Below, in pieces: positions 14,104 to 36,625 of a DNA stretch of 64,000 nucleotides. Every line of letters starts with the position of its first letter. Position 1 is the first letter of the stretch. The position numbers were made by a program, and so were the translations under genes. Origin of the DNA: Acetobacteraceae bacterium (GTDB lineage: Bacteria > Pseudomonadota > Alphaproteobacteria > Acetobacterales > Acetobacteraceae). The stretch covers positions 1 to 64,000 of the forward strand of contig PLSD01000089.1 of the NCBI GenBank assembly GCA_003164135.1. The letters are read 5' to 3'. Below the pieces are notes generated by a model. It did no database searches, was not told the origin of the DNA, and saw nothing but the letters and a program-made list of their open reading frames with translations.

Positions 14104-14117
14104 TTGATCAATGTCAA
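14104..14117 (+). promoter_or_regulatory. FNR/FixK-type box upstream of ompW-like gene
   Basis: TTGATCAATGTCAA matches the TTGA-N6-TCAA consensus of CRP/FNR-family anaerobic regulators. Its centre is 41.5 nt before position 14152. With a class II geometry the -10 hexamer would be TATTCG (14140-14145), leaving a 27-nt leader with a GGGAGA ribosome site before ATG 14179. FNR control of ompW is known in E. coli. Confidence 0.6.
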
Positions 14118-32848: not shown

Positions 32849-32862
32849 TTGACCTGAATCAA
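32849..32862 (+). promoter_or_regulatory. FNR/FixK-type box upstream of hemN
   Basis: TTGACCTGAATCAA matches TTGA-N6-TCAA. Its centre is 41.5 nt before 32897, which is the hemN start codon itself. A class II promoter would therefore give a leaderless message. Alternatively TATCGG (32867-32872) is the -10 and the box overlaps the promoter. hemN is a classic FNR/ANR target. Confidence 0.6.
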
Positions 32863-32896: not shown

Positions 32897-34261
32897 ATGA
32901 TAACCGATGCCGAACTCATTGCCCGCTACGATGGCCGCGTACCGCGCTACACGAGCTATCCGACCGCGCCGCATTTTACCCCTGCGATTGGGGGGGAAAC
33001 TTATGCCTCCTGGCTGGCCAATCTGCCGGCAGGGGAGCCGGTTTCGTTGTATCTGCATGTGCCGTTCTGTGACCGGCTTTGCCTGTACTGCGGCTGCAAT
33101 ACCTCCGTGGTGCATTTGGAACGGCCCAAGCGGAGCTACGCGGCAACGCTGGCACGTGAAATATCCCTGGTAGCGGCGACCATTGGCCGCCGGCTGGAAG
33201 TTTCCCACGTGCACTGGGGCGGTGGCACCCCTACAGTTCTTCCACCCGATTGCCTGACCAGTTTGATGGATGATATTCGCAGCCATTTCACGCTGCTGCC
33301 GGGCGCCGAAATTGCCATCGAAATCGACCCGACCTCGCTGACGCCGGAGCGGCTGGCGGCGCTGGCCCGCATGGGGGTTAACCGCGCCAGCCTTGGCGTG
33401 CAGGATTTTGACCAGCAGGTGCAGGACGCGATTGGCCGCCAGCAAAGCTTTGAGGAAACCCAGGCCTGCACCCATGCGCTACGCGGCATTGGTATAACCT
33501 CGCTCAATCTGGACCTCATTTACGGCCTGCCGCACCAGACCGAGGCATCGTTGGAGCGCACCTCGCGCCTGGCGCTTAGCCTGCGCGCGGACCGTGTTGC
33601 CGTGTTTGGCTACGCGCATGTGCCGTGGATGAAAAAGCACCAGTCACTGATCCCGGAAGCATCGCTGCCGGGCGCGCAGGCCCGTTTTGCCCAGGCGAAG
33701 GTGGTTCGCCGCGTGCTGGAGCGGGAAGGGGGGTACGTCCCGGTCGGGCTCGACCATTTTGCCCGGCCTGGGGATGCCATGGCTGATGCGGCTTTGGCGA
33801 AAAACCTGCACCGCAGCTTCCAGGGCTACACCACGGATGCCGCGCCCGTGCTCATCGGCCTGGGGGCGAGTGCCATCGGCAGCCTGCCGCAGGGTTATGT
33901 GCAGAATGCTTCGGCCGTGCCTGCGTACACTGCCGCCATCACCAAGGACCATCTGGCTACCAGCCGTGGCGTTGCCCTGAGTGCGGACGACAGGCTTCGC
34001 CGCGCCGTGATCGAGAGCATTATGTGCGAGCTGGAAGTAGACTTAGCGGCCCAGGCCGGGGTTTTTGGCGCCGATCCGGCACCACTGCTGGCCGACGCGC
34101 AAGCCTTGGCGGGTTTCCAGGCTGATGGTTTGGTGACCTGGGACGGCACGCGCATTGAGGTTACCGAAGCCGGCCGGCCGTTTGTGCGCAATGTCGCGGC
34201 GCTGTTCGATAGCTACCTGAAGCAGCAGACGGAAATGCCGCGCCACGCCGTTGCGGTTTAG
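32897..34261 (+). CDS. hemN: oxygen-independent coproporphyrinogen III oxidase
   Basis: 454 residues, radical-SAM enzyme that decarboxylates coproporphyrinogen III to protoporphyrinogen IX without oxygen. The cluster-binding 'FCDRLCLYCGC' (CxxxCxxC) follows 'SLYLHVP'. The N-terminal 'RVPRYTSYPTAPHF' is the true HemN signature rather than HemW, and the 'DLIYGLPHQT' and 'ARPGD' regions are present. AGAAG lies 4 nt ahead of ATG 32897. An FNR-type box 35 nt upstream fits low-oxygen induction. Confidence 0.96.
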   Translation: MITDAELIARYDGRVPRYTSYPTAPHFTPAIGGETYASWLANLPAGEPVSLYLHVPFCDRLCLYCGCNTSVVHLERPKRSYAATLAREISLVAATIGRRLEVSHVHWGGGTPTVLPPDCLTSLMDDIRSHFTLLPGAEIAIEIDPTSLTPERLAALARMGVNRASLGVQDFDQQVQDAIGRQQSFEETQACTHALRGIGITSLNLDLIYGLPHQTEASLERTSRLALSLRADRVAVFGYAHVPWMKKHQSLIPEASLPGAQARFAQAKVVRRVLEREGGYVPVGLDHFARPGDAMADAALAKNLHRSFQGYTTDAAPVLIGLGASAIGSLPQGYVQNASAVPAYTAAITKDHLATSRGVALSADDRLRRAVIESIMCELEVDLAAQAGVFGADPAPLLADAQALAGFQADGLVTWDGTRIEVTEAGRPFVRNVAALFDSYLKQQTEMPRHAVAV

Positions 34262-34440: not shown

Positions 34441-34476
34441 AAAAAAAAGCCCCGCGCGCATTTCTGCGGCAGGGCC
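34441..34476 (-). terminator. intrinsic terminator, minus strand
   Basis: GCCCTGCCGCA / TGCG-C-GCGGGGC stem (11 pairs, one bulge, one G-U) with a GNRA-type GAAA loop and eight T. It ends the candidate small RNA and may also end read-through from the CBS-BON gene. Confidence 0.8.
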
Positions 34477-34504
34477 AGTGTGGGGAGTGTATCCGCTTTC
34501 GGAT
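34441..34504 (-). ncRNA. candidate FNR-controlled small RNA (64 nt)
   Basis: Read on the minus strand. If the FNR box at 34539-34552 acts at -41.5, the start point is 34504 and the -10 is TTAAGT (34516-34511). The transcript would begin exactly at a 5' hairpin ATCCG-AAAG-CGGAT (nt 1-14). A single-stranded stretch containing CTCCCC (nt 19-23) follows and could pair with Shine-Dalgarno sequences. Nt 30-56 form an 11-bp stem with one bulged C and a GAAA loop, ended by eight T. Promoter box, start, hairpin and terminator fit together without adjustment, but the -10 is weak. The terminator could instead serve the upstream CBS-BON message. Confidence 0.55.
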
Positions 34505-34538
34505 AAACAGACTTAACCCTGAATTTTGGGTCTGGTCG

Positions 34539-34552
34539 TTGATTTGAATCAA
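34539..34552 (-). promoter_or_regulatory. consensus FNR box in the hemN / CBS-BON spacer
   Basis: TTGATTTGAATCAA is a perfect TTGAT-N4-ATCAA FNR consensus. It lies downstream of both flanking genes, so it does not serve either as a promoter. On the minus strand it is spaced for the candidate RNA at 34441-34504. Confidence 0.7.
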
Positions 34553-34584: not shown

Positions 34585-35286
34585 TTACTTGGCGGACGGC
34601 GCCAGTTTGAATCTCGAATCCGTTAGTTCCAGGCGATCCACAACCATGTTCACGCCGCGCGTGTTTTCCGCCAGCACCCTGGCTGCCCGGCGTTCGTCCT
34701 CGCTGTAGACCATGCCCTCCAAGTACACGGTCGTGCCGGTCACCTGCACGCGAAGGCCAGATTTTGGCGCCCAAAGTTCGCGCGCCAGCGCCGCCAGGAT
34801 CGTTTCCTGAATTTCCTGTTCGCCAACTTCCTCGGTGGCGGGAATGAGTTTCGGCGCCAGGGCGGTCAGTAGGTCGAACCGGCTGATTACGCCGACCAGC
34901 GTTTCACCTTGCAGTACCGGCAGGCGTTTCACGCGCTTGTGCTGCATCAGCTCCGCGGCTTTCGCAAGGCTGGTCTCCGGGCGCACGAATACGGGGTTGC
35001 GGCTCATCACATCACTCACGTGGCGGCTGTGCGTATGCACATATTCCGCGGCCAGACTCGCGGGATTGATGAGGGCTTTCATCCACGCGGCCCGGCGTCC
35101 CTCGGTCCCGAGTTCGGGCCGGCGCAGCAGGTCGCCTTCCGTTAAAATCCCCACCAGATGGCCGGATTTGTCAATTACAGGTAACCCGCTCACCCGGTGC
35201 CGCAACATGGACTGAGCGGCCTCCGCGATACTGCTTTCAGGCTGCACCGTTACAATGTCCCGGCACATCAGCTCGGCGACGATCAT
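34585..35286 (-). CDS. CBS-CBS-BON domain protein
   Basis: 233 residues. There are two CBS motifs (about 7-60, 'MCRDIVTVQPESSIAEAAQSM', and about 93-148, 'MSRNPVFVRPETSLAKAAELM') and a C-terminal BON domain (about 160-225, 'LRVQVTGTTVYLEGMVYSEDERRAA'). CBS pairs bind adenine nucleotides; BON domains bind membranes or phospholipids. Such proteins are frequent members of oxygen-limitation regulons in alphaproteobacteria. AAGGAG precedes the ATG. An FNR-type box 58 nt upstream gives a predicted 23-nt leader. No partner enzyme is adjacent, so the function is inferred as a nucleotide-sensing envelope protein. Confidence 0.9.
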   Translation of the reverse strand: MIVAELMCRDIVTVQPESSIAEAAQSMLRHRVSGLPVIDKSGHLVGILTEGDLLRRPELGTEGRRAAWMKALINPASLAAEYVHTHSRHVSDVMSRNPVFVRPETSLAKAAELMQHKRVKRLPVLQGETLVGVISRFDLLTALAPKLIPATEEVGEQEIQETILAALARELWAPKSGLRVQVTGTTVYLEGMVYSEDERRAARVLAENTRGVNMVVDRLELTDSRFKLAPSAK

Positions 35287-35343: not shown

Positions 35344-35357
35344 TTGATCCAGGTCAA
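35344..35357 (-). promoter_or_regulatory. FNR/FixK-type box upstream of CBS-BON gene
   Basis: TTGATCCAGGTCAA matches TTGA-N6-TCAA. Toward the minus strand the class II start would be 35309, with TCATAG as -10, just ahead of the AAGGAG of the CBS-BON gene. Toward the plus-strand CoA-transferase the -10 position is GAGGGC, which is unsuitable. Confidence 0.6.
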
Positions 35358-35431: not shown

Positions 35432-36625
35432 TTGAGCGATGCCATCCATGCCGTCTGGGCGCAGGATGATCTGCCGGCCACTGGTCCGCTGCGCGGCGTG
35501 CGGGTGCTGGATTTCACCACCGTACTCATGGGCCCCTCGGCAACGCAGATTTTGGGCGACCTCGGGGCCGATGTGGTGAAGGTGGAGGCGGCGGCGGGTG
35601 ACGCCATGCGCTGGATCGGCCCGTGGCGGCACGAGGGCATGGGGCCGCTGTTTCTGTGGGCCAACCGCAACAAGCGCGGGCTGGTGCTGGACCTTAAAAC
35701 GCCGGAGGGCAAAGCCGCCGCTTTGGCGCTGGCGGCGTCGGCCGATGTGCTGGTCTCCAACGTCCGCCCGCACGGTATGGCCCGCCTGGGCCTGGACTAT
35801 GAGAGCATCCAGGCCGCCAACCCCGGCATCATCTACTGCGCCGCCGTGGGTTATGGCTCGGGCGGGCCGCAATCTGGGCAGCCGGTGTACGACGACCTGA
35901 TGCAGGCAGCCTCGGGCATTGCTGGTCTGTTCGGCCGCATGGACGGCACACCCCGCTACACGCCGGTGAACATTTGCGACCGTATCGTCGGGCTGTATGT
36001 GGTCAACGCCATCACCAGCGCCTTGTACCACCGGGCGATGACGGGGGAGGGGCAGGAGATCGAGGTGCCAATGTTCGAGAGCATGACGCAGTTTGTCCTC
36101 TCGGACCACATTGGCGGCGAGGCGTTTGCCCCGCCGGAGGGTGCGATGGGCTACAAGCGCCTGCTCTCCACCACCCGTGGCCCGTACGCCACGGCTGATG
36201 GGTATTTAAGCGTGGTCGTCTATACCAACCGGCATTGGCAATCATTCTGCGCGCTTGTGGGCGCACCAGACCTTACCGCCACCGACCCGCGGTTTAAAAC
36301 TCAGGAATCGCGCACGCAGTATGCGCTGGAAATCGGTGAATTTCTGGCCAGGCATTTTGCCACGCGCAAGACGCAGGAATGGGTAGAACTGCTGCGCGGA
36401 ATTGATGTGCCGGCCAGTCAGGTTAACACCATGGAAGACCTGATGACCGACCCGCATTTGCGCGCGTCCGGGTTTTTTGAGGAAATGGAACACCCGACCG
36501 AGGGCAAGCTGCGCGTCGCACGGCATCCGGTGCGCTACAGCAAAACCCCCGCGAGCTTGCGCCGGCTGGCGCCTAATCTGGGCGAGCATAATCCAGATTT
36601 TTTAAAACCAGGCGACGGTGCTTAA
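35432..36625 (+). CDS. class III CoA-transferase (CaiB/BaiF family)
   Basis: 397 residues, family III CoA transferase moving CoA between carboxylic acids through an aspartyl-CoA anhydride. 'GVRVLDFTTVLMGPSATQILGDLGADVVKVE' is the typical start, and 'QPVYDDLMQAASG' contains the catalytic Asp. 'CDRIVGLYVVNAITSALYHR' and 'NTMEDLMTDPHL' are also family blocks. TTG start 35432 with AGGAG 8 nt upstream. Substrate unknown; no neighbouring dehydrogenase indicates a pathway. Confidence 0.9.
   Translation: MSDAIHAVWAQDDLPATGPLRGVRVLDFTTVLMGPSATQILGDLGADVVKVEAAAGDAMRWIGPWRHEGMGPLFLWANRNKRGLVLDLKTPEGKAAALALAASADVLVSNVRPHGMARLGLDYESIQAANPGIIYCAAVGYGSGGPQSGQPVYDDLMQAASGIAGLFGRMDGTPRYTPVNICDRIVGLYVVNAITSALYHRAMTGEGQEIEVPMFESMTQFVLSDHIGGEAFAPPEGAMGYKRLLSTTRGPYATADGYLSVVVYTNRHWQSFCALVGAPDLTATDPRFKTQESRTQYALEIGEFLARHFATRKTQEWVELLRGIDVPASQVNTMEDLMTDPHLRASGFFEEMEHPTEGKLRVARHPVRYSKTPASLRRLAPNLGEHNPDFLKPGDGA

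Follow-up and report, generated by a model that had tools for sequence, protein, structure and literature searches.

What does a perfect FNR box control when it lies downstream of both of its neighbouring genes? The question arose in a stretch of 64,000 nucleotides (the window; contig PLSD01000089.1) from an Acetobacteraceae bacterium whose genus is probably Acidocella. An earlier note on this DNA had answered it with a candidate 64-nt small RNA (sRNA) read from the minus strand, placed between hemN and a gene for a CBS-BON protein. The parts of the locus and its surroundings are as follows.

34539..34552, minus strand: FNR/FnrL box TTGATTCAAATCAA, with its centre at -41.5 relative to the predicted start (from sequence; position kept across the loci of the genus)
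34511..34516, minus strand: -10 element TTAAGT, weak here (from sequence)
34441..34504, minus strand: predicted 64-nt small RNA (from the fold and the match to covariance model R1)
34491..34504, minus strand: 5' hairpin ATCCG-AAAG-CGGAT, from the predicted +1 (from the fold and covariation)
34477..34490, minus strand: single strand ACACTCCCCACACT holding the anti-Shine-Dalgarno-like CTCCCC (from the fold and conservation)
34441..34476, minus strand: intrinsic terminator, a GC stem with one bulge, a GAAA loop and a U8 tail (from the fold and covariation)
32897..34261, plus strand: hemN, oxygen-independent coproporphyrinogen III oxidase, convergent (TIGR00538, 437 bits, cut-off 325)
32849..32862, plus strand: FNR-like box TTGACCTGAATCAA upstream of hemN (relaxed-box scan)
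34585..35286, minus strand: CBS-CBS-BON protein gene, on the upstream side (next to the RNA in 6 of the 27 loci)
35344..35357, no strand assigned: FNR-like box TTGATCCAGGTCAA, flanked by the CBS-BON gene and a divergent one, either of which it could serve (relaxed-box scan)
35432..36625, plus strand: divergent CoA-transferase-like gene, sharing the box at 35344-35357 with the CBS-BON gene

The box is perfect and reads from 34552 to 34539 on the minus strand, as had been claimed, and placing its centre at -41.5 puts the predicted start on 34504, which is the first base of the 5' hairpin (34504-34491). In the predicted fold this 5-bp hairpin is followed by an open C-rich stretch, where the claimed CTCCCC (34487-34482) is single-stranded, and then by a 12-pair terminator with one bulge. 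The terminator had been described as a plain 11-bp stem; its start at 34476, the GNRA loop and the eight T at 34448-34441 were confirmed, whereas the stem has 12 pairs and one bulged C. This terminator is missing from the output of a consensus terminator scan. TTAAGT is a poor -10 element, a weakness that the note had itself pointed out, and a consensus sigma-70 scan gave no promoter; in the majority consensus of 23 related loci, ATAA occupies -11 to -8. With Rfam at curated thresholds, a tRNA was the only match in the window.

Relaxed boxes (TTGAY-N4-RTCAA) are in excess within the window, with 4 observed and 0.13 expected, and the genome holds 41 strict boxes as against 1 for the reversed pattern. 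Two of the relaxed boxes lie by hemN and by the CBS-BON and CoA-transferase-like genes, so that the neighbouring units, too, appear to be under FNR control, and an equivalent box was present upstream of hemN in all four relatives checked. The fourth relaxed box of the window, TTGATCAATGTCAA, is found at 14104-14117.

Conservation of box and RNA within Acidocella

A pattern search for the RNA core in GTDB contigs identified 19 stretches, including five from named Acidocella (aminolytica, aquatica, aromatica, facilis and KAb 2-4), three from metagenome-assembled genomes titled Acidocella sp. and eight from metagenome-assembled 'Proteobacteria' (seven assemblies). The remaining three came from unrelated bacteria (Sedimentisphaerales, Paenibacillus and Segatella), where 3.7 are expected by chance at even base composition. 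At the DNA level, a search of 147 relatives gave matches in 17 genomes; the window's own is one of them, and all belong to the same genus.

The covariance model R1 was built from the RNA of 16 sequences, with the box excluded, and scores 76.9 bits on the window RNA, which is one of those 16. It matches 26 of the 38 genomes of the genus (17 of the 23 high-quality ones) at 27 loci. Since the box lies outside R1, its position is an independent test: the box (TTGAY-N4-RTCAA) starts at -48 in 20 loci and at -47 in six, and is absent in one (L087). The chance of a box at -47 or -48 is about 1e-4 per locus, as calculated from the density of relaxed boxes in the window, with related species not being independent draws. 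There was no R1 match in 12 of the 38 genomes (6 of the 23 high-quality ones). In a thirteenth genome, G031, the box-less L087 is the sole match; we judged it, being without box and CUCCC, to be a chance match and not a genuine locus, and it is still counted in the 27. Taken together, the excess of boxes in window and genome and the box at -47/-48 in 26 of 27 loci that were found by the RNA alone argue that the layout of the sRNA gene is not due to chance.

Information content was determined from 23 of the 26 boxed loci, omitting L007, L009 and L013 as near-duplicates. The means per column are 1.63 bits for the box, 0.37 for the spacer and 0.77 for the region from -14 to -1, followed by 1.33 for the hairpin, 1.54 for the single strand and 1.14 for the terminator; in this alignment the box and the RNA are conserved, the intervening DNA is not. 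Covariation was also found, with both sides changed in 10 of 14 pairs against a mean of 2.9 in shuffles (0 of 500 reach 10), a comparison in which the structure was derived from the same sequences and the shuffles ignore relatedness; 94.3% of the cells in the 23-locus alignment pair. In the terminator stem, both sides change in 7 of 10 pairs. In the 5' hairpin they do so in 3 of 4 pairs, every time in no more than 1 or 2 of the 23 sequences, and the hairpin never varies among the 16 closer sequences, so that its covariation rests on a few divergent ones.

The hairpin could merely serve the upstream (CBS-BON) message as its terminator, or the RNA could be processed from a 3'-UTR, with the box being incidental. 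Indeed, 20 of the 27 loci have a co-directional gene whose end is 58-106 nt before +1, and a box also stands upstream of CBS-BON, and thus read-through into the same terminator is likely. Nevertheless, the upstream gene is not the same from species to species: it encodes the CBS-BON protein in six of these 20 loci, a sigma-54 regulator in seven, a DUF2189 protein in four and OmpW in three (family names taken from one representative each), and in two other loci, in G022 and G014, it points the opposite way, yet the box, the spacing and the RNA stay. Strong conservation of the box and, from +1 onward, of the RNA, with little in between, likewise speaks against a mere message end, and we consider this explanation very improbable. 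The earlier note had named two findings that would overturn it and that could be checked here, namely a terminator that is simply the CBS-BON 3' end and a lack of conservation in relatives. Instead, 14 of the 20 co-directional upstream genes are others, and box, hairpin and loop are kept (26 of 27 loci boxed at a fixed place), which supports the note's overall interpretation. Judged by its sequence pattern, the locus is almost certainly a real, conserved, FNR-wired sRNA gene.

A neighbour that does recur is hemN, which is convergent to the RNA in 23 of the 27 loci. The four loci without adjacent hemN are L011 (contig edge), L049 (G014, with hemN about 2.6 kb from the RNA), L084 (in G004, which is 83% complete and gave no hemN match at 1e-60) and the doubtful L087. 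At the same threshold, nine of the 12 genus genomes without an R1 match have no hemN match either, or 10 of 13 including G031; the co-occurrence of RNA and hemN has a Fisher p of 8e-6 (G030 omitted, where the contig ends), a value confounded by adjacency, descent and incomplete genomes. Such a linkage would be expected if the RNA acted in cis on hemN, as an antisense to its 3' end or as a transcription-collision block, and not in trans. However, the distance between +1 and hemN is not fixed (about 94 to 853 nt), the RNA persists in G014 far from hemN and in G004 with no match to it, and the nearly unchanging C-rich loop points to Shine-Dalgarno pairing. We therefore regard action in cis as improbable, and repression in trans through an anti-Shine-Dalgarno loop as likely. 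A frame between the RNA and hemN in G014 resembles an IS1595-like transposase by eye; it has no Pfam match, and the name is not kept.

Five Acidocella genomes (L054, L058, L019, L085 and L086) have an FnrL homologue (one protein cluster) some 0.9 kb upstream of the sRNA, and in three of these OmpW stands between, giving the order fnrL-ompW-sRNA-hemN. The homologue at L054 is 59% identical to the FnrL of the window genome. With its varied upstream genes and its linkage to hemN and fnrL, the RNA thus keeps company with low-oxygen genes rather than with CBS-BON.

Relation to alpha-r8 and to other FNR-linked RNAs

Several traits are shared with the alpha-r8 sRNAs (RF00519 suhB; MmgR of Sinorhizobium meliloti, SisA-D of Caulobacter), which according to the available parts of one paper are short and have a weak 5' hairpin, a single-stranded CUCCC anti-Shine-Dalgarno stretch and A-ACU followed by a Rho-independent terminator (PMC12559287). 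The same parts report that SisA represses its targets and that its sibling sRNAs have a common anti-Shine-Dalgarno signature. The window RNA shows this order of hairpin, anti-Shine-Dalgarno stretch and terminator, and RF00519 is its nearest Rfam family, with 20.1 bits and E 0.037 in a 201-base scan, below the gathering cut-off of 41. Among eight further loci of the genus scanned, only L015 is listed for RF00519 (21.5 bits), and among three other loci scanned by Rfam, none.

One alternative is an ordinary alpha-r8 sRNA that has an FNR box in its promoter by accident, a view favoured by the like order of parts, the 20.1 bits and the fact that R1 in turn matches alpha-r8 RNAs. When R1 was run over 34 RF00519 loci (102 kb), 32 of them had a single match (E up to 1), which in every case fell on the alpha-r8 RNA and never elsewhere; the scores are weak, 13.5-21.8 bits (best E 0.0033), and the shared terminator contributes to them. 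On the other hand, the RF00519 score is half of the gathering cut-off and the alpha-r8 10-mer UUUCCUCCCU occurs in none of the 23 aligned loci, which have the loop cores ACACUCCCCA (14 loci), ACUUUCCC (five), ACUUUCCUCC (two), ACACUCCCCU and ACACUCCCGG (the last two loci). Separate RF00519 copies over the cut-off are present in all 38 genomes of the genus and, among the matches listed, none coincides with the R1 place, and the five own-genome copies (three over the cut-off, two below) have no TTGAY-N4-RTCAA box within 90 bases upstream. The Acidocella RNA also differs from alpha-r8 in its FNR-box promoter and in its neighbours, hemN and CBS-BON taking the place of the N-formylglutamate amidohydrolase gene that is usual beside single-copy alpha-r8; in genomes with several copies the others need not adjoin that gene, as stated in the available parts of PMC12559287. 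An ordinary alpha-r8 sRNA is therefore unlikely. We consider the RNA core to be a diverged relative, or a close mimic, of the alpha-r8 (suhB/mmgR) sRNAs that would now be under FNR control, and descent from alpha-r8 is plausible but unproved. In appearance, the RNAs of G005 and G001 (GGACACUUUCCUCCAAACUUGG) fall between the window type and the alpha-r8 sequence of the own genome (GGACGUUUCCUCCCUAAACUUGG). On two contigs (G012:C189 and G021:C52) an RF00519 copy over the cut-off lies about 9-10 kb from the FNR-boxed sRNA.

Of the 28 genomes with an R1 match in a wider search, 14 are outside the genus, and in these no R1 match had an FNR box in the upstream bases examined (only 10 bases for L064), and none was accepted as this RNA. 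L059 and L066 are suhB over the Rfam cut-off, and L063 and L064 have a core like theirs by eye. L060, L065, L068 and L069 resemble by eye the own-genome L075, a sub-threshold RF00519 match, and RF00519 is absent from the Rfam matches listed for L060 and L069. The remaining six look like chance terminators.

FNR-controlled sRNAs are well known in enterobacteria, where FnrS is the example. The Acidocella RNA resembles FnrS in its predicted activation by FNR, with a box at class II distance from the predicted start that is kept in relatives and with a four-cysteine FnrL-like protein in the genome, and differs from it in the class of its host and its anti-Shine-Dalgarno type of loop. The earlier note had likened the architecture to FnrS or to the C-rich-loop RNAs of Alphaproteobacteria; by Rfam, alpha-r8/suhB is the nearest, and FnrS is not among the four matches of the window RNA. 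FnrS represses genes that are dispensable without oxygen (PMC8139620, available in part). In Rhodobacter sphaeroides, PcrZ and the FnrL-bound sRNA promoters RSs0019 and RSs2461 belong to the FnrL/PrrA oxygen circuit (PMC8139620 and PMC4263372, parts of both); they are like the Acidocella RNA in being alphaproteobacterial sRNAs of an oxygen circuit, a comparison made by description, and PcrZ differs in that it targets photosynthesis genes and its FnrL control may be indirect. In these parts, published alphaproteobacterial examples are few and their FnrL control is indirect or without a shown effect on expression. The literature searched, which leaves out most subscription journals and includes parts of PMC7143759, PMC8102297 and PMC7677001, held no description of this RNA, and the main text of a Gluconobacter RNA-seq paper (PMC5756330) mentions neither sRNA nor suhB, FNR or hemN.

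We also found FNR-boxed RNAs in other genera. Model R2, which includes the box and so favours boxed loci, matched 20 of 397 genomes of the family, 14 of them Acidocella and six from three other genera. All six of the latter loci are boxed, and five score 29.5-40.7 bits to RF00519, a box-free model, none reaching 41. In genus g156 (L278, L279 and L281, from G378, G415 and G398) the FNR box is followed by an RNA with CUCCUCCCC-AAACUUGG and a terminator, the RF00519 match is sub-threshold, and each of the three RNAs comes after a gltX-like frame, on its downstream side (recognised by HMM in L278, by eye in the others). In genus g152 (L280 and L282) the box is upstream of an RNA with the very alpha-r8 core UUUCCUCCCU and 40.7 bits to RF00519, and in genus g116 (L277) of an RNA with ACACCUCCCAC and no RF00519 match. 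Model R3, which again contains the box, found matches in 48 of the 385 genomes of the class; besides the window's own, 29 loci were examined, of which eight have a box at no more than one mismatch and most others look by eye like boxless alpha-r8. Three loci from other alphaproteobacterial families (L284, L286 and L289) have an FNR box, a C-rich RNA (CUCAUACCCUUCCCU or CUCAAAACCCUCCCU) and a terminator, with no Rfam family listed at E up to 1, and L284 and L289, two of the eight boxed loci, are downstream of hisI. In some of the eight, box and terminator may stand together by chance. It is conceivable, at a little under even odds, that the Alphaproteobacteria have an FnrS equivalent of their own, in which anti-Shine-Dalgarno sRNAs of alpha-r8 type were repeatedly put under FNR/FnrL; the Acidocella RNA would be one lineage, and the RNAs by gltX in g156, in g152, in g116 and by hisI in other families would be further ones.

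The FnrL-like regulator, the proposed mechanism and candidate targets

Searched with a Crp-type helix-turn-helix model, the genome shows 13 matches, six of them over the cut-off. Of six proteins examined, one has cysteines at 27, 30, 38 and 126, which we take to be the four cluster cysteines of oxygen-sensing FNR, and a fifth at 188. Of the models compared it fits FnrL best, with 155.6 bits where the FnrL cut-off is 300, and its own frame is preceded by a box at a distance of 28 bp. We examined the 40 strict boxes outside the window and scanned 30 nearby frames against protein families. Genes next to boxes include those for cytochrome bd subunit I, porphobilinogen synthase, hydroxylamine reductase, glycogen synthase (two), the F1 ATPase beta subunit, a small heat-shock-like protein and an OsmY-like protein. 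Eight of the 40 boxes are inside frames from a simple ORF caller, nine of the 30 scanned frames have no family match at the thresholds used, and not every box fits a low-oxygen regulon.

FNR class II promoters are established to be activated from -41.5. We propose on this ground that at low oxygen FnrL, a [4Fe-4S] regulator, would bind the box at -41.5 and activate RNA polymerase in the class II fashion, giving a 64-nt RNA from 34504 to 34441. The hairpin and the terminator would flank an exposed ACACUCCCCA, which, in view of the loop sequence and the alpha-r8 precedent, may pair with Shine-Dalgarno sequences of the GGGGAG type, probably on Hfq by way of the U8 tail, and translation of mRNAs that are unwanted without oxygen would be lowered. 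As an FNR box marks its start, the RNA probably silences messages when oxygen runs out. We give a probability of roughly 0.8 to this reading as a whole, that is, to an FnrL-activated, trans-acting anti-Shine-Dalgarno sRNA that is an FNR-wired offshoot of the alpha-r8 type. What can be read from the DNA itself comprises the elements, their fixed spacing, the covariation, the independence from any single upstream gene, the FnrL-like protein and the many further boxes.

Sites of the form GGGGAGTG-N1-11-ATG number 67 in six genomes against 26 for the reversed control, an excess that ordinary Shine-Dalgarno sequences would give. The 65 stretches examined cover 66 of the 67 sites (G000:C42:50-61 omitted) and hold 69 candidate starts, of which 38 open frames of 60 aa or more. 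Among those 38 only hmgA recurs between two species; a second recurring group consists of two own-genome aldehyde-dehydrogenase-like frames, named by eye. The hmgA product is homogentisate dioxygenase (454.8 bits on a 301-aa part; the whole-protein cut-off is 510.75), and its start region contains the loop-complementary GGGGAGTGT in the window species (G000:C75, L249) and in G009 (G009:C100, L218). Pairing with the 16-nt loop of the window RNA is predicted at -20.9 kcal/mol in the window species, -20.2 in G009, -15.9 in G025 and -13.1 in G004, values given without a shuffled control. Homogentisate dioxygenase uses oxygen, and hmgA would thus be a sensible target to switch off, although four species are too few; being present in only 4 of the 38 genus genomes, it can be a species-level target at most. 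The start-site scan of six genomes and the hmgA search of 38 gave no target conserved throughout the genus.

In conclusion, a short RNA that lies by hemN, and sometimes near fnrL, in named Acidocella strains makes oxygen control of translation directly testable in acidophiles. It also shows how a widespread type of anti-Shine-Dalgarno sRNA may be wired to a new signal.
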